A stretch of DNA of 12,406 bases from J088 sp003695505 [NCBI: Candidatus Dadabacteria bacterium] (lineage in GTDB: Bacteria; J088), in assembly GCA_003695505.1 (NCBI GenBank), contig RFIY01000135.1, positions 1 to 12,406 on the forward strand, read 5' to 3'. Below, in pieces: positions 1,347 to 12,406 of the stretch (its first letter is position 1; each line of letters starts with the position of its first letter). The notes under the pieces were generated by a model that saw nothing but the letters and a program-made list of their open reading frames with translations, was not told where the DNA came from and made no database searches. A program made the position numbers and the translations under genes.

Positions 1347-2872
1347 TGCACATCCGCACACGACTCTGGATGCCCAGCGTTCTCATTCTCACGCTCGCAG
1401 GCTGCGGGATCGACTTCAAAGTCGGAAACGGCGGCCTGGTCGAGAATCTGTTCGACCGCATTGCCGACCGCGCGGCCAATATCTCGTCTTTCGGCGGCGA
1501 AGCGAGAACGTTTCGACTTCTGTCCAACGGCGTCGACGGCGTCATCCCTGACCTCGATATGATTGCGCCGTCGACCGGTCTCGGTGGCAGCAGCACCGGA
1601 CTCGCGCCGGCGGGCGTCGCGGATGACTGTTTCATCTCACCCGACGTGTTCGACCTCCCCGCCGACCAGGTCTGCCGCATCAGCGAAACAGCCGCGGATC
1701 CGGAACCAGGCGTGACCAGCGCCACCGAGACATATGTGCTGTACTTTCCAGAAGGCACGGCAAATACCGATCGCGCCATCGCCATCGACTATCTGGCAAC
1801 GAAATGGTACAGCGACGGCAGCACTGGCGTCGTGCGCGTTCTTGACCAGGAAGCCGCCAACGCAACCACTGCGGCAGATCTCGGCCGCCATCGAGTTCAC
1901 GTCATCGAGCAACGGTTTTTTCCTTCCGGGCAAACGATTGCAGAACAATGGGCCCTGATTGCGGCCAACTGGCACGGCGTCCCCGATGACAGCAGCCCCG
2001 CCGATCGCGCGGCTGCCAACGACACGACGGACGAAGCATTCTATGCCGTCTATATGGAACGCTATGCCGACGGCAGCAGCAGCGAAGTGGTCATGGTGCC
2101 GTCCGCACCTTTGACGGACGACAGTGATCCGCCGGCCGGCGTCGTCACGCAGACGACCACCTTCGCCGACGGCCCGTTGCTCGACAGCGTCGAAACGGTG
2201 ACCTGGGACATCCGTCAGCCCGCCGCCAGCGGCAGCAAGCGTCTGCGGTATCGCGACGGCAGTTCAGAAACCGAATCCTATGCCGTCACCGACACCGGCG
2301 CAACCGGGACCACCGCGGGTCGGCTCGGAGAGCGCTCGACATTTGCCATCGACTTCCACAACGGCACCTTCGTCGAAACCGTAATCTTCCCCGACAGTCA
2401 CCCGATTGCCATGATCGAACAATCCGGTGTCTATACCGAGGCCGGCACTGGCCGCCAGACTCTCGACCTGAAGGAAACCACGACGTGGCGCGACGGATCG
2501 ACCGATGATGCCACGGCCACGATCTCGGTACAGGGCAACCGGACGACGATCGACTACACGGAATTGCGTCACGATGGAACCTCTGAGCAGGGCCGCATCG
2601 TCGTGGTCGATGGCATCGCCAGCCAGCAGATCGAAGCCGACATCACCGACCAGGATGGCATGCTGATCCATATCGAGGGCACCCAGTTCGCCGGCGGCGC
2701 GGCCATCCTGAGACTGAACGGCGACGATCCGACAACCCCGCAAAGTCCCGACTGGACCGCGAACGTGCACGCCTGGCCAGATGGCAGTGTCTCCGGCACG
2801 GTGACGGCCGATGGCGACACGGTCAGCTTCGACCGCGACGGCAACCTGCTATTGACCACGTCCGGCTCCTGA
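1346..2872 (+). CDS. Predicted lipoprotein with repeated aromatic-x-D-G-S motifs
   Basis: A 508-aa protein of unknown function. Residues 1-20 form a type II signal peptide: basic MHIRTR, a hydrophobic core, and the lipobox LAGC (17-20) with C20 as the lipidated cysteine. Residue +2 is Gly, so outer-membrane rather than inner-membrane retention is likely in a Gram-negative cell. The mature part is acidic, rich in Asp, Thr, Ser and Gly, without membrane segments, and looks mostly beta-stranded. A short motif (Y/W)-x-D-G-S recurs at about residues 155, 240, 302, 381 and 477, with a variant RHDGT at 408, suggesting repeated beta-hairpins. The ATG has a strong ribosome binding site (AAGGAG, 1333-1338) inside the end of the preceding gene and overlaps its stop (TGATG). 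An upstream in-frame ATG at 1289 would bury the signal peptide and is rejected. Co-transcription with the regulator suggests a regulator/target or sensor pair, which is inference. Confidence 0.8.
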   Translation: MHIRTRLWMPSVLILTLAGCGIDFKVGNGGLVENLFDRIADRAANISSFGGEARTFRLLSNGVDGVIPDLDMIAPSTGLGGSSTGLAPAGVADDCFISPDVFDLPADQVCRISETAADPEPGVTSATETYVLYFPEGTANTDRAIAIDYLATKWYSDGSTGVVRVLDQEAANATTAADLGRHRVHVIEQRFFPSGQTIAEQWALIAANWHGVPDDSSPADRAAANDTTDEAFYAVYMERYADGSSSEVVMVPSAPLTDDSDPPAGVVTQTTTFADGPLLDSVETVTWDIRQPAASGSKRLRYRDGSSETESYAVTDTGATGTTAGRLGERSTFAIDFHNGTFVETVIFPDSHPIAMIEQSGVYTEAGTGRQTLDLKETTTWRDGSTDDATATISVQGNRTTIDYTELRHDGTSEQGRIVVVDGIASQQIEADITDQDGMLIHIEGTQFAGGAAILRLNGDDPTTPQSPDWTANVHAWPDGSVSGTVTADGDTVSFDRDGNLLLTTSGS

Positions 2873-2885
2873 CTCCGTTCACGAC

Positions 2886-2933
2886 ACGCGCCCACGGCGG
2901 CCCGGCAACCTGTCCGGCCCGCCGTGGGCGCGT
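2886..2933. terminator. Strong GC-rich hairpin, likely terminator between convergent genes
   Basis: A perfect 15-bp inverted repeat (2886-2900 with 2919-2933), extended inward by CCGG (2902-2905) pairing with CCGG (2914-2917). On the plus strand it is followed by ACTTTTAG, a short T run of four. It starts 14 nt after the lipoprotein stop and lies 49 nt beyond the stop of the leftward Rieske gene, so it can serve both converging transcripts. There is no T run on the minus-strand side, so termination there would be less typical. Confidence 0.75.
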
Positions 2934-2981
2934 ACTTTTAGCAAACGCGCACCAACTGACGCAGCTCCAGCGAAACCGCGA

Positions 2982-3530
2982 TCACCCCTGCAGGCGTGTG
3001 GACTGGGGAACGTTGTGATTGATTTCGACCAGAACCGTGTCCTGATCGAGGGGAGAGACCAGATAATGAACCAGATCGCGCTCTGCGGGTCCGCGCAGCA
3101 CACGACCAATTCGGTCGAAGCGAGATCCGTGGCAGTTGCACGCGAGCCCAAAAGAGGTAATTTCGCCTTTTCGCCGCATGTCACAATTGGCGTGTGGACA
3201 AATCGATGACATCGCGTAGACGCCGTCGCCGTCCCTGCCGATGACAACACGATCCTCCGCCACGAACTGTACCGTATCCACCTCCAGCGTCGAGATATCC
3301 ACGCGGACCTGCCGATACAGCGTTTCAATGTCAACATACGGATCGGCCGTGTCGGTTGCCGGCACGGCGACGTCTGCGCGCGTCGGCCGAGACGGCTCCG
3401 CTCCACAACCGCACAACAGCGTCCCGGCAAGCCCGATCCCGCCGCGAGTCAGGTCGCGTCGCGTCAAGTGCCTGTCGGCATGCTCCACGGGAACGTCTTG
3501 CTGTGGATCTGGATTTGCACTTCGCGTCAC
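2982..3530 (-). CDS. Tat-exported Rieske [2Fe-2S] protein
   Basis: A 182-aa protein that should carry a Rieske iron-sulfur cluster outside the cytoplasm and act as an electron carrier or subunit; its partner is not in this window. Box I is CPHANC (111-116) and box II CNCHGS (131-136). C111, H113, C131 and H134 are the expected cluster ligands. C116 and C133 match the disulfide pair of bc-complex-type Rieske proteins, a sign of a higher-potential cluster rather than a Rieske ferredoxin. Both boxes have Asn where Gly (box I) and Pro (box II) are usual. The N-terminus has a twin-arginine motif TRRDLTRGG (23-31) and a short hydrophobic stretch ending in LCGC (39-42), so it may be Tat-exported and lipidated at C42; the lipobox is imperfect. 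The start is GTG with only a weak ribosome binding site; no better in-frame start is visible. It is probably co-transcribed with the 96-aa gene 72 nt upstream. Confidence 0.85.
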   Translation of the reverse strand: MTRSANPDPQQDVPVEHADRHLTRRDLTRGGIGLAGTLLCGCGAEPSRPTRADVAVPATDTADPYVDIETLYRQVRVDISTLEVDTVQFVAEDRVVIGRDGDGVYAMSSICPHANCDMRRKGEITSFGLACNCHGSRFDRIGRVLRGPAERDLVHYLVSPLDQDTVLVEINHNVPQSTRLQG

Positions 3531-3602
3531 GACGATCGCATCCCGGAGCTGGCATTCCCGGCCAATATTGTCCCACGTCCTGATGCCGTCGGGCGAACTG
3601 TT

Positions 3603-3893
3603 TCAGATCCTCCCCCACGCCCAGAGACGGCCCAGTGGCAGTGCCAGACGAATTCGCATCTCTGCCGCGGCCAGTCGTGTTCGGTGCGGCTCTGGCAACA
3701 GATCCCGTTCCAGCGCCTCCAACCCGAATCTGAGCCATTGAGCGGAATACGGCCAATCGTTCACAATCAGCTCCGCCTGATCGGGCTCCACGGTACGAAA
3801 CGCGAACGCCTCCTCAAATGCATCAAGGTGGGACAGAACCACCATCACAAAGTGTCTCGGATCGTCGTCGACAAACGGGATATTCGTCGCCAC
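3603..3893 (-). CDS. Small protein of unknown function, 96 aa
   Basis: I do not recognise the family. The GTG start at 3893 is preceded, with a 5-nt gap, by a very good ribosome binding site (GGGGAGGAG on the minus strand, 3907-3899), which favours it over the GTG at 3917, since that one would place the Shine-Dalgarno inside the gene. The translation reads like a real soluble protein: an acidic N-terminus (FVDDDPRHFV), then amphipathic helices with Trp and Leu (VNDWPYSAQWLRFGLEALERD), and a basic C-terminal part. No signal peptide, membrane helix, cysteine motif or catalytic signature is visible. It lies immediately upstream of and in the same direction as the Rieske gene, so a linked role is possible but unproven. 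Confidence 0.55.
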   Translation of the reverse strand: MATNIPFVDDDPRHFVMVVLSHLDAFEEAFAFRTVEPDQAELIVNDWPYSAQWLRFGLEALERDLLPEPHRTRLAAAEMRIRLALPLGRLWAWGRI

Positions 3894-4144
3894 AGATGCT
3901 CCTCCCCGTCCCTGCACGGCATACCGCCGACAGAGAAGAATCCAGCGTCGCCATCATTGCGAAACGCACCGCACAGACGAGTGCGCATGCTGCGCCACGG
4001 ACCGGATCAACATGTGAGCCGGTGGATTGGGTAGATTGCGGTTGAGAGTTAAAAGCACGCAAGCCGGTAGCAGCGCATACCGCGACTTCAAATCTCGTGT
4101 CTGGTAATACGGGCATGCACGAAAACGGCCCCAGGAGAGGAACA
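3894..4144. other. Divergent intergenic region before the cas operon
   Basis: About 250 bp between the leftward 96-aa gene and the rightward cas operon; both must be transcribed from here. I find no strong promoter. The best plus-strand match is TTGGGT (4027-4032), 17 nt, TAAAAG (4050-4055), which is weak. A further -10-like element, TGGTAATAC (4102-4110), has no matching -35. No CRISPR-repeat-like sequence convincing enough to call is present. Confidence 0.5.
4133..4140 (+). promoter_or_regulatory. Ribosome binding site of the small ORF upstream of cas3
   Basis: AGGAGAGG lies four bases before the ATG at 4145. It is a better Shine-Dalgarno match than the one serving cas3 itself (GGGAG, 4217-4221), and is the main reason to think the 28-codon ORF is translated. 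Confidence 0.5.
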
Positions 4145-4231
4145 ATGACAAGCTTGCTCGGCATTGGTATGATTGACGCACCAACCGGCTTGCGCGGTCT
4201 GGCGGTAATGGATGGTGGGAGCCGAACATGA
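4145..4231 (+). CDS. Small upstream ORF coupled to cas3, 28 aa
   Basis: ATG at 4145 with a strong ribosome binding site four bases upstream (AGGAGAGG). It encodes 28 residues starting MTSLLGIGMIDAPTG and ending GGSRT. Its TGA stop (4229-4231) overlaps the cas3 start in an ATGA arrangement (4228-4231), a typical layout for translational coupling. The peptide has no recognisable domain; its first half is mildly hydrophobic. It could be a leader peptide that tunes Cas3 translation, a small functional protein, or a chance ORF. The same stretch holds the cas3 ribosome binding site (GGGAG, 4217-4221), so ribosomes translating this ORF would pass over it. Confidence 0.4.
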   Translation: MTSLLGIGMIDAPTGLRGLAVMDGGSRT

Positions 4232-6570
4232 CTGAGACACATCATGACGCTGCGGAACCGATCGCGCACCTTCTTCGCGATCCGCGATCGAACAACTTGC
4301 GGATTCATCCCCTTCGGGGTCACCTTACCGATGTAGCAAACCTCGCAAGCAGCTTCGCATCGGATCTTCTCGCCGATCAATGGGGCTACCAGGCAGGTTT
4401 GTGGCACGATCTCGGCAAATATTCCGAGGCTTTTCAAAATTACTTGCTCGGCGCATCCAGAGACTACCACACGGAGGAACTGAGCGATACGCCCGGGCGC
4501 GTAGATCACAGTTCAGCGGGCGCGCAGCACGCTCGCAACCTTTTAGGTCCTCTCCTTGGCGACGTGCTTGCTTTTGTGATTGCTGGCCATCATTCCGGCC
4601 TTCTCGATGCCATTGGCAACGAGGGAAGCGCGGCCCTCGAAAACCGGCTACGGAAACAAGTTGAGGACTGGCGCAACGCGCCGACAGATATTCGGCAACT
4701 GCCTGAACCGGCACGCCAGCGGTTGTTGGCGCAGTTGAAGGCCATCGTGGAGCGCAGCCAGGAGCCACTGGCGGAGCGTCACCAGGAATCACTCTTCGCC
4801 ATCTCGTTTTTTATCAGAATGTTGTTTTCCTGTCTTGTCGACGCTGACTTTCTGGACACGGAACGCTTCATGGACCCTGAACGCGCGAAGAGTCGCGCCT
4901 CCTGGCCCGATGACATTTTGGAACGCATCGATACGTTGCTGACCAACCATGTCAAGGCAATTTCTCGACGGGGCACTGCGATTCATAGAATCCGCAGTGA
5001 GATATACGAGGCGTGCGTCAACGCGGCACCATCAGCGCCGGGCTTCTTTTCATTAACTGTCCCTACTGGTGGAGGCAAAACACTCTCGACGCTGGCGTTT
5101 GCGCTGAGGCATGCCCTGCGATACGGAATGCGGCGCATCGTCTATGTTGCGCCATTTACAAGTATCATCGAACAGAATGCTGATGTATACCGAGAAGTCG
5201 TTCAGCCCTTGACCGCAGAAGGCCTGCCTTCTCCTGTTCTTGAACATCACAGCGCGCTGGATATTGAACGTGAAACGTTCGCAAGCAGGCTGGCTACCGA
5301 GAACTGGGATGCTCCGCTAATCGTAACAACCGCAGTACAGTTTTACGAGTCGCTGTTTGCAGCACGAACCAGCCGCTGCCGCAAGTTACACAATCTCAGC
5401 CACGCTGTTGTCATACTCGACGAAGCCCAAAAACTACCTGTTGACCTTCTTCATCCCATCTTGAGTGCGCTAAAGTGTCTCGCAGGCGGATATGGAGCTA
5501 CCATTCTCCTGTGCACCGCGACACAGCCGGCGGTCGCTGCGCGCAGCGACTTCCCGGCAGGACTGCCAAACGTTCGTGAAATCATCCCCGACCCCGCTGG
5601 CCTCGCGCGCAAAATGAAGCGCGTTACCGTGCGTAGCTTGAACGACCTGCACGAAATGAAACGTAGCGAACTGGTGCAGGCGCTGTTGCCGCACGAGCAG
5701 GTTCTGTGTATTGCCAACACACGGAGTACCGCACGTGAGCTATGTCTGGAACTTCGCGACAACCTGGACGACGTGCAAAGCGTACAACACCTGAGCGCCG
5801 CGATGTGCCCGGAACACCGTTGTGCAGTCCTTGCCGACATTCGAAATCGTCTCGCGAACGGGGCCCCCTGCCGCGTGATTGCGACGCAGGTCATCGAAGC
5901 GGGTGTGGACGTCGATTTTCCGGTGGTCTTTCGCGCGCTTGCGGGGCTCGACTCGATCGCACAGGCCGCCGGGCGATGCAATCGAGAAGGCATCCGCGAT
6001 TCCGGAGACGTGTGGATTTATCGTCTCGAAGCCCAGAGCCGTCGGGAAGGCTTTCTCGCCGACACCATCAACGCGGCAACTCAGGTTTTATCGGCTGAAG
6101 ATCAGATCGAATTGTTATCTCCCGAAACCGTCGAGCAGTACTTTCGGCTCTATTTCTGGCAACAGCGGGATCGATGGGATCGGTACCAGATCGTACGCGA
6201 TCTGTCGCAACAAGGGGACGATGAACTTCCCTTGCTGTTTCAGTTTCGAAGCGTCTCAGAACGATTTCGACTCATCCCGGATAATGGAGCGACTGTCATC
6301 ATCCCATGGGGCGAGCGCGGCGCCGACCTTGTCGATCAATTGCGACGCATGGGTGCCAACGTCCCACGTAACTTGCTACGCAAACTGCAGCGCTTTACTG
6401 TCCAGATTCCGCAACGCTGGCTGGATCTGTACCTGAAGCAGGGCCGCGTGGAGCAGATAGCGGAACATTATCCGGCGCTTGTTGCCGCAAACCTGGATTA
6501 CGACGAACTACTTGGCATCTCCCCTCCGGAAAACGTTATTTCCTGGAGCGCGGATGCACTGATTTGTTGA
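4228..6570 (+). CDS. cas3: Type I-C CRISPR-associated helicase-nuclease Cas3
   Basis: A 780-aa protein; it unwinds and degrades target DNA after recruitment by Cascade. An N-terminal HD nuclease domain (about residues 20-240) shows H32, the HD pair H60-D61 in LWHDLGKYSEAFQ, H94 in VDHSSAG, and H121-H122 in AGHHSGLLD. The SF2 helicase core follows: Walker A PTGGGKT (279-285), the DEAQ box (398-401) in VVILDEAQKLP, the CTATQP motif III equivalent, and motif VI QAAGRCNR (579-586). Length and domain order are normal for a fused HD-helicase Cas3, and all key residues are present, so it should be active. The start is ATG with GGGAG six bases upstream, overlapping the stop of the small upstream ORF. 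It is the first large gene of the operon; cas5c begins 33 nt after its stop. Confidence 0.97.
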   Translation: MTETHHDAAEPIAHLLRDPRSNNLRIHPLRGHLTDVANLASSFASDLLADQWGYQAGLWHDLGKYSEAFQNYLLGASRDYHTEELSDTPGRVDHSSAGAQHARNLLGPLLGDVLAFVIAGHHSGLLDAIGNEGSAALENRLRKQVEDWRNAPTDIRQLPEPARQRLLAQLKAIVERSQEPLAERHQESLFAISFFIRMLFSCLVDADFLDTERFMDPERAKSRASWPDDILERIDTLLTNHVKAISRRGTAIHRIRSEIYEACVNAAPSAPGFFSLTVPTGGGKTLSTLAFALRHALRYGMRRIVYVAPFTSIIEQNADVYREVVQPLTAEGLPSPVLEHHSALDIERETFASRLATENWDAPLIVTTAVQFYESLFAARTSRCRKLHNLSHAVVILDEAQKLPVDLLHPILSALKCLAGGYGATILLCTATQPAVAARSDFPAGLPNVREIIPDPAGLARKMKRVTVRSLNDLHEMKRSELVQALLPHEQVLCIANTRSTARELCLELRDNLDDVQSVQHLSAAMCPEHRCAVLADIRNRLANGAPCRVIATQVIEAGVDVDFPVVFRALAGLDSIAQAAGRCNREGIRDSGDVWIYRLEAQSRREGFLADTINAATQVLSAEDQIELLSPETVEQYFRLYFWQQRDRWDRYQIVRDLSQQGDDELPLLFQFRSVSERFRLIPDNGATVIIPWGERGADLVDQLRRMGANVPRNLLRKLQRFTVQIPQRWLDLYLKQGRVEQIAEHYPALVAANLDYDELLGISPPENVISWSADALIC

Positions 6571-6603
6571 AAGTATGACAAGAAACGCAGAAAAGGAGCG
6601 GTG

Positions 6604-7353
6604 ATGACGTTCGGGGTGCAACTGGAAATCTGGGGTAACTATGCAGCGTTCAACCGACCGGAAATGAAGGTGGAGCGCGTGTCCTACGACGTGATTACAC
6701 CAAGCGCAGCCAGAGGGATACTTGAGGCGATTTACTGGAAACCACAGATCCGATGGTGTATCGACCGGTTACACATCCTCGCTCCCATACACTTCACGCA
6801 GGTTCGTCGAAACGAACTCTCCGGCAAGGTTCCGGTGAAAGGCGCCAGTGGGGTAGCATCGGCATTGCAATGTGCCGAACGCGGCGAACAACATTATCTG
6901 CCGTCCGTCCATATCGAGGATAAACGGCAACAGCGCGCGGCCCGCATCCTGCGCGATGTTCGTTACGGTATTGAAGCGCACATCGAAATCCTTGATCCAG
7001 CAGAACGGGACGGCACTATGCTCGCACACCCCGAAGCCAAGCATCTCGATACTTTTCGACGTCGCGCGACCCGCGGCCAATTCCACCACCAGCCTTGGCT
7101 CGGCTGCCGAGAATTTCCTGCTTTCTTCCGAATCCTGGACGAGGGCGAATCATTCCCATCCTGTCCTGAGGAACTACTCGGCGAACGCGACCTGGGATAT
7201 ATGCTCTGGGACATCGAGTTCACGCCGGATGCGAGAGGCAAGGTCATCGAGCGACATCGTGGCCGACGCGTGCGCCCCCGTCCCCGCTTTTTCCGAGCGC
7301 TAATGCGCGATGGTGTGATTGAAGTACCCGCGATTACGGAAACACGGGAGTAG
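6604..7353 (+). CDS. cas5: Type I-C Cas5c (Cas5d), crRNA-processing Cascade subunit
   Basis: A 249-aa RAMP protein. In type I-C it replaces Cas6: it cuts pre-crRNA at the base of the repeat hairpin and stays bound to the 5' handle in Cascade. The N-terminal strand FGVQLEIWGNYAAFNRPEMKVER and the segment YDVITPSAARGILEAIYWKP (residues 28-47) are highly characteristic. Y44 sits where I expect the described catalytic tyrosine (Y46 of the Bacillus halodurans enzyme). The adjacent Lys-His pair described there is not obvious here; H126 in RYGIEAHIEI is a candidate His. The C-terminus is very basic (GRRVRPRPRFFRALM), suitable for RNA contact. AAGGAG (6593-6598) is 5 nt before ATG 6604 but only 2 nt before GTG 6601, so the ATG is chosen. 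It ends 4 nt before cas8c. Confidence 0.95.
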   Translation: MTFGVQLEIWGNYAAFNRPEMKVERVSYDVITPSAARGILEAIYWKPQIRWCIDRLHILAPIHFTQVRRNELSGKVPVKGASGVASALQCAERGEQHYLPSVHIEDKRQQRAARILRDVRYGIEAHIEILDPAERDGTMLAHPEAKHLDTFRRRATRGQFHHQPWLGCREFPAFFRILDEGESFPSCPEELLGERDLGYMLWDIEFTPDARGKVIERHRGRRVRPRPRFFRALMRDGVIEVPAITETRE

Positions 7354-7357
7354 CGTG

Positions 7358-9226
7358 ATGATACTGCAATCACTCCTGGAACTCTACAATCGACTCGCCG
7401 GCGACCCTGCCTATCAGATCCCGCCACCGGGCCGAAGTATCCAAAAAATGAAGTTCGCGATCGTCTTGCACCCGGATGGCCGTCTGCACGAACTTCAGGA
7501 CATTCAGGTGAGTGAGGGACGCAAATCGCGCCCACGCCTGATGATCGTACCCGGGATCACAAAACCTACCGGCAGCGGTTTGAACCCATGTTTCCTCTGG
7601 GACAATACCGCCTATCTCCTGGGCTGGGACAGTCGGGCAGATCGCGCAGAACGAGCCAGGAAACAGTTTGCGGCGTGGCGCGATGCACACCTTTCGGTTG
7701 AACGCGCTATCGATCACCCGGAGTTTTCCGCCATCTGCCGATTTGCTGAAACGTGGGACCCGGCCAATGCCGATCAGATGCGAGACCTCCTTGAGCGGGT
7801 AAGCACTGGCTTCGGATGCTTTCAGATCATTGGGCGCACAAGCTACGTCCACGACAACGACCAGATTCTGTCATGGTGGGATAAACGCACCTGCCACAAT
7901 CCGGACCGCATGAAGCGCTGGGCCACGATACAGACCGAAATCCAGCCTGATGGGGCCGAGGCGAACGCTGCCGAACCGGGCGAACCGACACTCCAGTGTT
8001 TGCTGACCGGTAAGATCGTCGCGCATGCCGACATTGCGCGACTGCATCCAAAGATCAAGGGCGTTGCGGGTGCACAATCTTCTGGCGCAACGATCGCGGG
8101 TTTCAATGACCCTGCCTACGAGTCGTGGGGACACGAACAGAGCTATAACGCGCCGGTTTCCCAGGAAGCTGCCCGACGCTACGTCGCCGCATTAAACGCC
8201 CTTCTCGACGGACCGATGCGACAGCGCCACCGACTCGACCTCGGCTCAACGACCGTCGTATTCTGGACAGACCGTCCATCGGCCGCAGAAGGACTATTTG
8301 CACAAATCGGCCTGGGTGGCCTGGATGATCTGCAACACGTTCAGGACGAGTACTTGCGCTCGCGCCTCGAACAGGCGCTGCGTGCCATTCGTGCGGGTCG
8401 CCAGACCTGGCGGGAACTTGATGCATCCGCGGCAGACACAAGATTCTACATTCTCGGGCTTGCGGCGCCAGCACCCGCCCGGATCGCCGTTCGCTTTTTC
8501 CGCGAATCAACGGTTGCCGACCTGCTGGATCGCCTTTGGCAACATTTTTCTGACGTTCGCATCGAACGTCAATTCGGTGACGATGCGCGGCGGCCCGAAC
8601 CGCGGTACCCATCTTTTCGGTTCCTGCTTGACACCCTTCGCCCCCCCGGCGGTGATCCACCGCCATTACTCGCACCCGGTCTCGTCGAAAGTATCGTAAC
8701 CGGGCGGCAATACCCGCCGCTGTTGTATCAGGCGACCATCCGCCGACTCATTGCCGATCGCAACATTAACTACGCTCGTGCATGTTTGATCAAGGGCCAT
8801 CTGACCCGCAATCTTGGAAAGGAGATTTCCGTGACCCTCGACCCCAGCAACACAGATCCGGCGTACCGGCTCGGACGATTGTTCGCCGTACTCGAAAAGG
8901 CACAGTCCGACGCGTTACCCGGAATCAAGGCAACAATCCGGGACCGCTACTATAGCGCTGCGTCAGCGACCCCGCAAGCCGTATTCCCCCGTTTGTTGCG
9001 ATCGTGGCAACACCACCTTGGGGCGTTGGAAAACGTCGGCCAGCGCATTAACTATGACAAGCTGGCCCAGGAGATCCTCGGTCCCCTTGAGACATTTCCT
9101 GCGCACCTCGACCTTGCGGGACAAGGGCATTTCGCGCTCGGATACTATCATCAACGCAATGCCCTCTACAAACCCGCGGGCGCAACTGACAGCGAGCAGC
9201 AAGAAAACACACCCTCTGTAGCATAG
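7358..9226 (+). CDS. cas8c: Type I-C Cascade large subunit Cas8c (Csd1)
   Basis: A 622-aa protein, the normal length for Csd1/Cas8c. It is the large Cascade subunit that recognises the PAM and helps recruit Cas3. The N-terminus MILQSLLELYNRL followed by IPPPG (21-25) and KFAIVLHPDGRLHELQD is the family signature. Further Csd1-like parts include CLLTGKIVAHADIARLHPKIKG and the C-terminal FPAHLDLAGQGHFALGYYHQR. Several starts are possible (GTG 7319, GTG 7355, ATG 7358); GGGAG (7346-7350) is 7 nt before ATG 7358, and family proteins begin MILQ, so that start is used. The last 131 codons also encode Cas11c from an internal start (separate entry). It lies between cas5c (4-nt gap) and cas7c (23-nt gap). 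Confidence 0.96.
   Translation: MILQSLLELYNRLAGDPAYQIPPPGRSIQKMKFAIVLHPDGRLHELQDIQVSEGRKSRPRLMIVPGITKPTGSGLNPCFLWDNTAYLLGWDSRADRAERARKQFAAWRDAHLSVERAIDHPEFSAICRFAETWDPANADQMRDLLERVSTGFGCFQIIGRTSYVHDNDQILSWWDKRTCHNPDRMKRWATIQTEIQPDGAEANAAEPGEPTLQCLLTGKIVAHADIARLHPKIKGVAGAQSSGATIAGFNDPAYESWGHEQSYNAPVSQEAARRYVAALNALLDGPMRQRHRLDLGSTTVVFWTDRPSAAEGLFAQIGLGGLDDLQHVQDEYLRSRLEQALRAIRAGRQTWRELDASAADTRFYILGLAAPAPARIAVRFFRESTVADLLDRLWQHFSDVRIERQFGDDARRPEPRYPSFRFLLDTLRPPGGDPPPLLAPGLVESIVTGRQYPPLLYQATIRRLIADRNINYARACLIKGHLTRNLGKEISVTLDPSNTDPAYRLGRLFAVLEKAQSDALPGIKATIRDRYYSAASATPQAVFPRLLRSWQHHLGALENVGQRINYDKLAQEILGPLETFPAHLDLAGQGHFALGYYHQRNALYKPAGATDSEQQENTPSVA
8818..8824 (+). promoter_or_regulatory. Internal ribosome binding site within cas8c for Cas11c
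   Basis: AAAGGAG followed by six bases and an in-frame GTG (8831). This is among the best Shine-Dalgarno matches in the whole operon although it lies deep inside a coding region, which marks it as a functional internal initiation site. Confidence 0.8.
8831..9226 (+). CDS. cas11c: Cascade small subunit Cas11c from an internal start in cas8c
   Basis: A 131-aa product in the same frame as cas8c, starting at GTG codon 492 and sharing its stop. Type I-C Cascade is known to need a small subunit, Cas11c, made by internal translation of cas8c; it lines the target strand next to the Cas7 backbone. The start here (VTLDPSNTDPAYRLGRLFAVLEK after initiation) falls where I expect the published internal start, and the region is the conserved helical C-terminal part (IRDRYYSAASATPQAVFPRLL, then HHLGALENVGQRINYDKLAQEI). 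AAAGGAG (8818-8824) lies six bases upstream. The start rests on this ribosome binding site plus family knowledge; GTG is less common than ATG but usual for this organism's genes. Confidence 0.82.
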   Translation: MTLDPSNTDPAYRLGRLFAVLEKAQSDALPGIKATIRDRYYSAASATPQAVFPRLLRSWQHHLGALENVGQRINYDKLAQEILGPLETFPAHLDLAGQGHFALGYYHQRNALYKPAGATDSEQQENTPSVA

Positions 9227-9249: not shown

Positions 9250-10128
9250 ATGAACCGTTTTGATTTCGTCTATATTTTCGATGTAAAAGATGCCAACCCC
9301 AATGGCGACCCGGATGCAGGTAACCTGCCGCGAATCGATCCAGAAACCGGACACGGCCTCGTGACAGACGTCTGCCTCAAACGCAAGGTGCGCAACTACG
9401 TCACAATGAGCCAAAACAACCAACCTGGTCAACGCATTTATTTCGCCGAGCGCGCTGTACTCAACCGCCTCCACGCAGAAGCCTGGGAAAACCATCCCGA
9501 TGAAGATGTCCGTAGCGTACCCGCAGACAAGCGGAACAAACTGCCAAAAGAGGTCCAGAAAGCGCAGCAACTCACAGACTACATGTGTCAACAGTTCTGG
9601 GACATCCGCACATTCGGGGCTGTGATGTCAACCGAAGTCAATTGTGGTCAGGTGCGCGGCCCCGTCCAGGTTTCATTTGCACGTTCTGTCGAGCCGATTG
9701 TGGCCCTGGAACACGCGATTACGCGCAGCTCGGTAACCAACGAACGCGACCTCGAGAAAGAGCGTACGATGGGGCGCAAGTTTACGGTGCCGTACGCGGT
9801 CTACATTGCGCACGGGACCGTAAGTGGCGCGCTCGCGCAGCAAACCGGTTTCAGCGATGATGACGCAGAATTGCTTTGGGAAGCACTGGAACGCGCCTTC
9901 GACCTGGATGCTTCAGCCGCACGACCTGCAGGCAGCATGGCCGCACGCAGGTTAATTGTATTTGAACACGATCACCCGCTGGGCAGCGCGCCTGCCCACA
10001 AACTGTTCGATCGCGTCAAAGTCCACAGGCGCCCCGATGTCGCGGTGCCTCGCGAATTTGGGGACTATGAAGTTACCGTTACTCGCGAAGGCATGCCGCA
10101 AGGGGTCCGGCTGATCGAACGCGTGTAA
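9250..10128 (+). CDS. cas7c: Type I-C Cascade backbone subunit Cas7c (Csd2)
   Basis: A 292-aa RAMP protein, present in several copies per Cascade, that coats the crRNA spacer and presents it for base pairing with target DNA. The N-terminal signature FDFVYIFDVKDANPNGDPDAGN (residues 4-25) and the next block TDVCLKRKVRNYV are diagnostic of Csd2. Later conserved blocks are DIRTFGAVMS and GQVRGPVQVSFARSVEPI, followed by TMGRKFTVPYAVYIAHG. Length is normal and no key block is missing. ATG 9250 has AAGGAG (9236-9241) eight bases upstream. The TAA stop (10126-10128) shares one base with the cas4 ATG. Confidence 0.97.
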   Translation: MNRFDFVYIFDVKDANPNGDPDAGNLPRIDPETGHGLVTDVCLKRKVRNYVTMSQNNQPGQRIYFAERAVLNRLHAEAWENHPDEDVRSVPADKRNKLPKEVQKAQQLTDYMCQQFWDIRTFGAVMSTEVNCGQVRGPVQVSFARSVEPIVALEHAITRSSVTNERDLEKERTMGRKFTVPYAVYIAHGTVSGALAQQTGFSDDDAELLWEALERAFDLDASAARPAGSMAARRLIVFEHDHPLGSAPAHKLFDRVKVHRRPDVAVPREFGDYEVTVTREGMPQGVRLIERV

Positions 10129-10799
10129 TGCGCAGCGAAGCCGACCTGCTGCCCCTGTCTGGTCTGCAACACCTGGTGTTCTGCGAACGCCAGGCTGGCC
10201 TGATGCTGGTCGAGCAAATCTGGGAGGACAACGTATTTACCGTCCAGGGCACACTACGCCACCGCAACGTCCACGAAGAATCGCCGCGCCGTGAACGGCG
10301 CGGCGATTTGATCATCGTGCGGGGCCTGCCGCTGCGATCACTCGAACTGGGTGTCTCAGGCGTAGCCGACGTGGTGGAATTCCACCGAACCGACGACGCA
10401 ACCGGCGTGATGCTGACCGGATGCGACGGTCGATGGCAGCCGTTCCCGGTTGAGTACAAGCGAGGACGTCCGAAAATCCATCGGGCGGATGAAGTGCAAC
10501 TGTGTGCACAGGCCATATGCATCGAGGACATGCTTGGCACAAGAATCGACAAAGGCGCGTTGTACTATGGACAACCGCGTCGGCGCACAGAAGTTGCGAT
10601 GGATGATAGCCTGCGAGAGTTGACATGGGCTGCGGCACGCCGCCTGCACGAATTGGTCAGTGGCGGCATTACACCCCCAGCAATCCCGAAAAAGGAATGC
10701 CGCGCCTGCTCGCTGGTGGAAATTTGTCTGCCCTCCGCGGTTCAAAGACAACGCGTCGAACCGTATCTTGACCGTATTGCTGAGGACGAAGAATGGTGA
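10128..10799 (+). CDS. cas4: Cas4 spacer-acquisition nuclease (RecB-like, Fe-S)
   Basis: A 223-aa protein that trims prespacers with Cas1-Cas2 and so fixes PAM choice and spacer orientation. The cluster cysteines are C19 in the N-terminal FCERQ and C191, C194 and C200 in the C-terminal CRACSLVEIC, the four expected for a [4Fe-4S] cluster. The RecB-type catalytic residues are visible: H49, D81 in GVADVVEF, and E109-x-K111 in VEYKRG, with Q124 in the following helix (DEVQLCAQA). Nothing is missing. It starts one base into the cas7c stop (TAATG) and overlaps cas1 by 7 nt, so expression is probably translationally coupled. Confidence 0.96.
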   Translation: MRSEADLLPLSGLQHLVFCERQAGLMLVEQIWEDNVFTVQGTLRHRNVHEESPRRERRGDLIIVRGLPLRSLELGVSGVADVVEFHRTDDATGVMLTGCDGRWQPFPVEYKRGRPKIHRADEVQLCAQAICIEDMLGTRIDKGALYYGQPRRRTEVAMDDSLRELTWAAARRLHELVSGGITPPAIPKKECRACSLVEICLPSAVQRQRVEPYLDRIAEDEEW

Positions 10800-11815
10800 A
10801 GCGACACCTGAATACGCTGTACATTACAACCCAGGGCGCGTGGTTGAACAAAGATGGCGAAACAATTGCTGTCAATGTTGACGGGCAAGCCAGACATCGC
10901 ATTCCGATGCATCTTCTGCAGGGCCTTGTTTGTTTCGGAAATGTATCCATCAGCCCGTTTCTTCTGGGTGCCTGCGTCGAGCGTGGGATTGGTATCAGTT
11001 ACCTGACGCGGAATGGGCGTTTCCTGGCGCGCGTAAGCGGACCCGTAACAGGCAATGTCCTCCTACGGCGCGCGCAGTACCGAATGGCGGATGACGAGAC
11101 CCGGCGAACTGCGTTGGCAAAGACATTTGTACTTGGGAAACTCGTCAACACACGTACGGCGCTGCGCAGAGCGAGTCGAGACAATCCAGAACGTGCCGCG
11201 AACCTGCAAGATGCTGCAAACCGGATTAACGGTTTGCTACGCCGTGCGCGAACGGCCGGCACGCTTGACGAAGCAAGAGGCATCGAGGGAGAGGCGGCGC
11301 GAATATACTTCAGTGTGTTTAACGAGTTACTGCTGGCTGACGGCTTCACATTCTCGCGGCGCACCAGACGCCCGCCACTCGACGCGGTAAATGCACTGTT
11401 GTCGTTTGTCTATACGTTGCTCGTTCACGACGTGCGATCAGCATTGGAAACTGTGGGACTGGATCCGCAAGTCGGTTTCTTGCACCACGACAGACCTGGT
11501 CGTCCAAGTCTGGCGCTTGATGTGATGGAAGAATTGCGTCCGGTCTTGGCTGACCGGCTCGTTTTGTCATTGATTAACCGCCGCCAAATTCGTCCAAACG
11601 GGTTTGAACAGCGCGAATCCGGCGCAGTCTGGATGGATGATGAGACGCGCAAAACGGTACTGACTGCTTGGCAAGAACGGAAACAACAGGAACTGCTCCA
11701 CCCATTCCTGGATGATCGCTGCACGGTCGGCGCCGTGCCGCATATTCAGGCCCTGTTGCTGGCTCGGCACTTGCGCGGCGATCTGGACGGTTACCCACCG
11801 TTTGTGTGGAAATGA
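10793..11815 (+). CDS. cas1: Type I-C Cas1 integrase
   Basis: A 340-aa protein that, as a dimer pair bridged by Cas2, inserts new spacers at the leader end of the array. The N-terminal beta domain (LNTLYITTQGAWLNKDGETIAV) is typical of I-C Cas1. The metal-binding residues are seen as E165 in GIEGEAARIYF, H231 in GFLHHDRPGRPSLALD, and D243 or E246 in LDVMEELRP. The full helical domain is present, and length matches the family (about 340 aa). It starts inside the end of cas4 (ATGGTGA, 10793-10799) with GAGG a few bases upstream, and is followed by cas2 after a 12-nt gap. Confidence 0.97.
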   Translation: MVKRHLNTLYITTQGAWLNKDGETIAVNVDGQARHRIPMHLLQGLVCFGNVSISPFLLGACVERGIGISYLTRNGRFLARVSGPVTGNVLLRRAQYRMADDETRRTALAKTFVLGKLVNTRTALRRASRDNPERAANLQDAANRINGLLRRARTAGTLDEARGIEGEAARIYFSVFNELLLADGFTFSRRTRRPPLDAVNALLSFVYTLLVHDVRSALETVGLDPQVGFLHHDRPGRPSLALDVMEELRPVLADRLVLSLINRRQIRPNGFEQRESGAVWMDDETRKTVLTAWQERKQQELLHPFLDDRCTVGAVPHIQALLLARHLRGDLDGYPPFVWK

Positions 11816-11827
11816 AAGGCTTTCGTG

Positions 11828-12118
11828 ATGCTTGTCGTCGTAAGTTACGATGTATCCACCGTCGATGCGGCCGGCCGCAGGCGACTGAGACGAGTAGCGC
11901 GCGTTTGCGAAGACTTCGGGCAGCGCGTGCAGAATTCGGTATTCGAATGTATTGTAGATCCGCAGCAATGGGCATTGCTGAAAGATCGCCTGCTGCGGGA
12001 ATTTGATCCCGGCCAGGACAGCCTGCGCTTTTATTATCTGGGAGCGAACTATGACAGGCGCATCGAGCATCACGGGACCAAAGACGTACCCGATTTGACC
12101 GATCCACTGATCTTATAA
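11828..12118 (+). CDS. cas2: Cas2 adaptation protein
   Basis: A 96-aa protein, normal for Cas2; it forms the central dimer of the Cas1-Cas2 integrase. The N-terminal strand MLVVVSYDV carries the conserved Asp (D8). It is followed by RRRLRRVARVCEDFGQRVQNSVFEC, the usual helix and second strand of the ferredoxin-like fold. AAAGG (11815-11819) serves either GTG 11825 (5 nt) or ATG 11828 (8 nt); the ATG is chosen because the family starts at the ML-x-V-V strand. It is the last cas gene and is followed by the CRISPR leader. Confidence 0.96.
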   Translation: MLVVVSYDVSTVDAAGRRRLRRVARVCEDFGQRVQNSVFECIVDPQQWALLKDRLLREFDPGQDSLRFYYLGANYDRRIEHHGTKDVPDLTDPLIL

Positions 12119-12309: not shown

Positions 12310-12406
12310 GTCGCCCCCCACGCGGGGGCGCGGATTGAAACAACCACGTCCGACTGATCGAGCACATACTGACAGCGTCGCCCCCCACGCGGGGGCGCGG
12401 ATTGAA
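12310..12406 (+). CRISPR. Start of type I-C CRISPR array (two repeats, one spacer visible)
   Basis: Repeat 1 spans 12310-12341 (32 bp), a 35-bp spacer 12342-12376, and repeat 2 12377-12406, cut two bases short by the window end; the visible parts of the repeats are identical. The repeat begins GTCGCCCCC and ends GGATTGAAAC, the type I-C pattern. It folds into a 7-bp hairpin, CGCCCCC (12312-12318) with GGGGGCG (12324-12330) around a 5-nt loop. The 11 bases after the stem (12331-12341) match the 11-nt 5' handle left by Cas5c. The array continues past the window, so the spacer count is unknown. Orientation follows from the leader and cas2 on its left. Confidence 0.97.

Follow-up and report, generated by a model that had tools for sequence, protein, structure and literature searches.

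The window, meaning the entire stretch of DNA analyzed here, is a whole contig of 12,406 bases from an assembly of 2.83 Mb that is 84.5% complete. It carries a type I-C CRISPR-Cas operon in the order cas3, cas5c, cas8c, cas7c, cas4, cas1c, cas2, then a CRISPR repeat, which is the same order as in Nitratidesulfovibrio vulgaris DP4. I-C-specific models scored above their cut-offs for cas5c, cas8c, cas7c, and cas1c. The features are as follows.

4228 to 6570, + strand: cas3 (Cas3'' HD model 101.2, above the cut-off of 43.45)
6604 to 7353, + strand: cas5c (TIGR01876, 156 bits, cut-off 85)
7358 to 9226, + strand: cas8c (Csd1), large subunit of the type I-C Cascade, 622 aa (TIGR01863, 440.6 bits, cut-off 218.65)
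8818 to 8824, + strand: internal Shine-Dalgarno (SD) sequence AAAGGAG, by direct reading (duplex energy −8.7 kcal/mol)
8831 to 8833, + strand: putative internal cas11c start codon GTG, cas8c codon 492 (aligned to residue 1, V, of 7kha_K)
8831 to 9226, + strand: predicted cas11c, small subunit, 131 aa (frame and stop codon, 9224 to 9226, in common with cas8c)
9250 to 10128, + strand: cas7c (Csd2) (TIGR02589, 352.8 bits, cut-off 182.25)
10128 to 10799, + strand: cas4 (TIGR00372, 125.4 bits, cut-off 65)
10793 to 11815, + strand: cas1c (TIGR03640, type I-C Cas1c, 508.2 bits, cut-off 385)
11825 to 12118, + strand: cas2 (TIGR01573, 62.1 bits, cut-off 24.5)
12310 to 12341, + strand: first CRISPR repeat (30 nt, 12310 to 12339, confirmed by the second copy)

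The core helicase model for cas3 scored slightly below its cut-off (100.8 versus 102.45). The mechanical open reading frame of cas5c starts at GTG 6601, and a copy of AAAGGAG at 6593 lies five bases before ATG 6604, the likelier start as judged from these signals. Cas8c matches PF09709 with an E-value of 2.1e-152 and, read from ATG 7358, its residue 1 aligns with residue 1 of D. vulgaris Cas8c (8dej_I). The CRISPR array consists of one spacer between identical 30-nt copies spaced 67 nt apart, the second of which (12377 to 12406) ends the contig. An AC at 12340 to 12341 would bring the repeat to 32 nt, the usual length of I-C repeats. No separately encoded small subunit (Cse2/Cas11, type I-E style) was found in the operon, and there is no room for a further gene between the seven cas genes because these overlap or are separated by gaps of at most 33 bases. 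Upstream of cas3 are a TIGR02147/DUF4423 protein (405 to 1346, + strand), a 527-aa protein with a lipobox-like start by eye and no match in NCBIfam and Pfam (1289 to 2872, + strand), and a Rieske [2Fe-2S] protein on the opposite strand (2982 to 3530, − strand). A search of the window's phylum (up to 300 genomes) returned the window's own genome alone.

Within cas8c, AAAGGAG is followed by the spacer ATTTCC (8825 to 8830) and then by GTG 8831. A sequence-only reading had described this arrangement, with six bases between the motif and an in-frame GTG at codon 492, a 131-aa product, and the stop codon of cas8c, and re-reading of the sequence bears out each element. AAAGGAG occurs twice on the + strand of the window and never on the − strand; the other copy is the one directly before the cas5c start. 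The SD:anti-SD energy before GTG 8831 is the strongest among the 18 in-frame ATG, GTG, and TTG codons of the cas8c reading frame, and it exceeds that before cas8c's own start (−6.9 kcal/mol). From −36 to +65 codons around GTG 8831, no other in-frame start has an SD better than −1.6. A search of the window's assembly for a 16S gene, a 16S 3' end, or a GGATCACCTCCTT stretch, from which the host's own anti-SD would be read, found none. We recoded the 13 local codons synonymously 2,000 times, drawing on the codon usage of cas8c itself. In 1.2% of recodings an equally good SD preceded a start within ±2 codons, and in 4.9% such a start had an SD of −7 or better.

Next, we compared the 131-aa segment with known structures. 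In the PDB its matches were ten distinct I-C Cascade chain sequences, each with an E-value below 1e-26, followed by two unrelated chains at 0.71. The N-terminal residue of the product falls on residue 1 (V) of the D. vulgaris Cas11c chain (7kha_K), and residue 3 aligns with residue 2 of chains 8g9s_H, 9jhb_B, and 9jhc_A. Identity to the N. vulgaris DP4 product is 58/117 (50%). An AlphaFold2 model of the product has five helices and a mean pLDDT of 91.8, with low confidence in the last ~20 residues. Sixteen PDB chains reached an E-value of 0.001 or better in a Foldseek search with this model, and the titles of their entries identify them all as I-C Cascade; the best was 8dex_J with an E-value of 8.4e-10, a TMq of 0.83, and an rmsd of 1.5. 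By the 7kha_K register, the DP4 identity, and the fold match, the start boundary guessed from sequence coincides with the experimentally known one. The helical character proposed earlier for the product thus agrees with the model, and its reading as a hidden cas11c is supported by the register, the I-C setting of the operon, the predicted fold, and the conservation described below. The 3' end of cas8c is very probably a gene within a gene, predicted from the DNA and the structural model to encode a separate 131-aa Cas11c. The additional claim that such genes are usually missing from annotations fits a small sample: cas11c was listed in none of 11 annotated plasmid records that list cas8c, in a PLSDB gene table that is itself incomplete.

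In the accessible text of O'Brien et al. 2020 (PMC7684278), an internal ribosome-binding site in D. vulgaris cas8c yields a separate small subunit, and two copies of Cas11c lie beside Cas8c in Cascade and are needed for interference. The window product and Desulfovibrio (Nitratidesulfovibrio) vulgaris Cas11c (7kha chain K) have the internal start column and the fold in common, and each shares its frame and stop with cas8c. The internal start of N. vulgaris DP4 is also GTG, preceded by CTGGAGGTG CCC, which contains GGAGG. Unlike D. vulgaris Cas11c, which is known biochemically, the window product is known from sequence and model. The Cas11 of the I-C Cascade of PDB entries 8g9s to 8gan (8g9s_H), which we take to be from Neisseria lactamica, belongs to a lineage separate from that of the window; compared by protein chain, it has the matching domain, with 48% identity over 115 columns in Foldseek. 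Furthermore, the Cas11b and Cas11d subunits of types I-B and I-D are made from inside cas8b and cas10d via an in-frame internal start, according to the accessible part of PMC11899642. The genetic trick is alike, while the subtypes and the large subunits differ.

By analogy with these systems, some ribosomes on the polycistronic cas mRNA would initiate at the ATG of cas8c and yield the large subunit of 622 aa, while other ribosomes would bind the internal AAAGGAG, start at GTG 8831, and make the 131-aa helical bundle Cas11c, identical in sequence to the Cas8c C-terminal domain except at the first residue. As in solved I-C complexes, two copies of Cas11c would then lie next to Cas8c, in the belly of Cascade, and keep hold of the strand displaced in the R-loop. 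That the organism makes Cas11c, in how many copies, and to what end are inferred from the I-C literature and the sequence evidence. The internal SD of the window is the stronger of the two (−8.7 versus −6.9), as would be expected if Cas11c is needed in larger amounts than Cas8c.

We then examined the site in 102 cas8c genes, comprising the window, 15 genome loci, two plasmid records, 80 genome contigs, and four viral contigs. The genome contigs are the best 80 of 558 confirmed relatives, so the set leans towards the window's relatives. They were found with an eight-row alignment; a single-protein scan of the genome contigs found no relative. Left out before counting were a row that is the window itself (L001), a row with the same gene as L012 (L017), a broken N. 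gonorrhoeae cas8c (L020), and two standalone Cas11c-like phage genes (L105 and L106). The 102 loci are related to one another, so counts are not independent events and P-values, including those of the Fisher tests applied to some codon-choice counts, are indicative only. One genome (G086) carries two divergent cas8c genes (L014 and L016), both above the family cut-off.

At the column of the window's internal start, 45 of the 102 loci have ATG and 35 have GTG. A start codon lies within ±2 codons of the column in 100 loci and within three codons in 101; L014 has a GTG at −3 with a strong SD, just outside the narrower range. The single locus with no nearby start, L103, has its sole nearest start, an ATG without an SD, at −15. 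The internal start follows an SD of −7 kcal/mol or better in 77/102 loci, versus 97/2,489 other in-frame starts of the same genes, and synonymous recoding would give 17.1 ± 3.2 of 102. Start codons by themselves are less telling: the synonymous null gives 83.9 of 102 versus 100 observed, a smaller excess, since there is a single codon for methionine, and most of the weight therefore falls on the SD and on codon choice. Where the start column holds valine, its codon is GTG in 35 of 38 cases, versus 883 of 3,186 elsewhere in the same genes. Under the SD, glutamate is GAG in 54/64 loci at −3 and in 21/21 at −4, and lysine is AAG in 26/29 at −4, so these G-rich codons are much commoner there than in the rest of the genes. 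Just outside it there is no clear excess of AAG for lysine (12/22 at −5 and 2/11 at −6). Where the start is shifted (−3 to +2), a strong SD was present at the shifted place in eight of the nine loci inspected, the exception being L010. As read from their DNA, the relatives keep the start and its SD far beyond synonymous chance; a known Cas11c start placed elsewhere, with no conserved ribosome-binding site at 8818, which the earlier reading had named as evidence against itself, was not what we saw. The median SD energy at the internal start, −9.3 over the 85 loci that lie outside the SD-less group described below and have a start within ±2 codons, is similar to that at the cas8 start (−9.0, 73 loci). 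The description of the window's site as near-perfect is slightly generous, the site being typical of the family.

A held-out set of 12 loci, hand-picked for variety from 45 plasmid and phage hits and lying outside the 102, was inspected up to four codons from the column, and more widely for L118 and L119. All 12 have a start, which lies within ±1 codon in 11 of them; the twelfth, L118, has it at −6, behind a good SD. The SD is −6 or better in eight and weak (−4.0) in L119, and three loci have an SD-less ATG at +1. Six of the 12 qualify under the strict count (within ±2 codons, SD −7 or better). The SD-less three are two Bacteroidales plasmids with one strain label (L110 and L111) and a human fecal record labeled as phage (L121). 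The operon of L110 is mixed, with an SD of −11.3 at the cas8c start and none at cas5c, cas7c, and cas4. L110 and L111 are plasmids of Parabacteroides distasonis and Phocaeicola massiliensis, both labeled TSDC17.2-1.1, and are nearly identical around the internal start, hinting at a recent transfer. As annotated, two other plasmid I-C loci seem incomplete: L116 has an IS3 transposase and no annotated cas5c before cas8c, with a strong internal SD and GTG kept, and L119 has no annotated cas7c after cas8c and the weakest SD among the SD-led held-out loci.

In 18 of the 102 loci, no SD within ±2 codons reaches −5: L010, L014, L103, and 15 loci that are all Verrucomicrobiota by record title and have an internal ATG, at column 0 or +1, without an SD. 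This SD-less group was set after the internal site had been seen. Its lack of an internal SD is therefore by construction, which does not apply to the SD-poor starts of cas5, cas7, and cas8, the retained ATG, or the open RNA. SDs of −7 or better were found at 0/15 cas5, 0/15 cas7, and 0/14 cas8 starts in the group, compared to 60/82, 51/77, and 60/73 in the other loci. The contrast rests on these three genes because cas4, cas1, and cas2 are SD-poor in both groups; strong SDs elsewhere are seldom seen at cas3 (2/16), cas4 (10/69), cas1 (17/53), and cas2 (12/41). The internal start codon is ATG in all 15 SD-less loci, versus 49 ATG, 35 GTG, and 1 TTG elsewhere. The 20 bases before this ATG hold a mean of 0.53 G versus 1.37 after synonymous recoding, and the folding energy around it is −1.2 versus −3.6 kcal/mol. 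The 74 other in-frame ATGs of the same genes are neither G-poor nor open (5.1 G, MFE −10.1), and the same is true of the internal ATG of one exception among the 15, L031. The SD-led loci, too, are slightly more open than after synonymous recoding (−6.5 versus −7.6).

Since cas5, cas7, and cas8 also lack strong SDs in these operons, the hidden start seems to follow the initiation mode of its operon. Two loci limit a rule by phylum, yet fit a hidden start that follows its operon. L023, a member of the Kiritimatiellia, which some place in the Verrucomicrobiota, has SDs. L089, a record titled Bacteroidales, has SDs at the internal start and at every one of the five cas starts checked except cas4. 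Seven of the ten best contig matches to the window's Cas8c are SD-less Verrucomicrobiota, and the window itself has the SD form. The accessible parts of earlier reports describe some Verrucomicrobia as SD-scarce (PMC10783764), weakened structure around the start codon of SD-less genes (PMC5397173), and an archaeal Cas11b for which an absent SD does not contradict a start (PMC11899642). No statement of an SD-free Cas11c start was found in the accessible text of the Cas11c literature covered, including PMC7684278 and PMC11899642; McBride et al. 2020 (Mol Cell) was outside this scope. Most simply, the hidden start persists under either initiation mode of the operon, and its signal is adapted to that mode.

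L103, which has no nearby start, is an IMG/VR viral contig with a Cas8c-like gene of 558 aa (2508 to 4184, + strand; PF09709, 335.9 bits). Its neighbors are an HTH-like open reading frame, weak and just under Pfam cut-offs, and an NlpC/P60 gene. Alone among the 102 loci, it has neither a cas5 nor a cas7 match, in the 7.6 kb examined of a 32-kb contig. A missing start fits the idea that the start is retained for Cascade assembly alone, although this is a single case, and L103 is possibly a viral cas gene turned against CRISPR.

Separately, two IMG/VR viral contigs carry standalone Cas11c-like genes with no cas8c body, L105 (3504 to 3944, + strand) and L106 (3489 to 3914, + strand). Their proteins of 146 and 141 aa are 58% identical, have an extra C-terminal stretch in common, and score 44.2 and 42.1 against a Pfam Csd1 cut-off of 27. 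L105 lies near minor tail, transposase-like, and nucleotide phosphatase matches, and L106 near an endolysin/amidase. The predicted fold of L105 matches Cas11c chains weakly, with a best E-value of 8.7e-3, a probability of 1.00, and a TMq of 0.52. A second viral scan for standalone Cas11c-like genes found none beyond these two. The anti-CRISPR AcrIB4 is 38% identical to the Cas8b C-terminal domain according to the accessible part of PMC13131331, and given this precedent L105 and L106 may be I-C inhibitors acting by subunit mimicry. Additionally, NZ_CP119142.1 (L020) and NZ_CP119140.1, N. gonorrhoeae records of 2.17 Mb that are classed as plasmids, match Cas8c residues 1 to 403 only, without the Cas11c part, and cas8c of NZ_CP119142.1 is in two open reading frame pieces.

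Could the site have no initiation function at all? The motif K-E-[VI] might be conserved for the protein, with codons that happen to resemble an SD before a GTG valine. The residues before the start are indeed partly conserved as protein and, in the window alone, a strong SD at 4.9% of recodings is not vanishingly rare. However, coincidence sits poorly with a codon choice that departs so strongly from the usage of the same genes (GTG 35/38, GAG at −3 54/64, AAG at −4 26/29), with strong SDs in 77 loci versus 17 expected, with an SD and a start that mostly shift together, and with SD-less operons that retain an ATG in mostly open RNA, and we consider it very improbable. Internal SD-like motifs have also been proposed to slow elongation, and the run does lie at a Cas8c domain boundary, where a pause could let the Cas8c body fold before the C-terminal bundle without any initiation. 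A pause needs no start codon, yet there is one within three codons in 101 of 102 loci, and the Verrucomicrobiota loci without an SD-like run have kept an ATG and mostly open RNA. Furthermore, Cas11c of D. vulgaris is an established separate subunit (PMC7684278, accessible text). We give a pause without initiation almost no weight, even if pause and initiation effects could coexist.

Equally little weight falls on Cas11c being made from another start or by proteolysis of Cas8c. The start position does drift from −6 to +2 codons among relatives. However, the window offers no competing SD between −36 and +65 codons, the D. vulgaris Cas11c chain begins at the same column, and proteolysis would not keep an SD and start codons. 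The hidden internal start is probably near-obligatory in working I-C operons, encoded by two interchangeable signals under synonymous selection, and lost when cas8c leaves Cascade, as in the one instance observed, the lone phage cas8c of L103. The signals would be an SD with ATG or GTG in most phyla and a lone ATG in G-poor, mostly unstructured RNA in Verrucomicrobiota. An SD-less, A-rich ATG was seen in the two Bacteroidales plasmids and the fecal phage-labeled record.

The window's cas11c is a clear case of a mechanism already established for type I-C and an ordinary example of its family. When this I-C system is moved or annotated, the internal start must be kept; codon optimization of cas8c, or tagging at the N-terminus only, would silently remove or hide a needed subunit. 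The part that deserves a specialist's look is the operon-matched, SD-free form. The comparison of relatives also makes it easy to locate Cas11c starts in SD-less phyla, for which a scan for internal ribosome-binding sites would come up empty.
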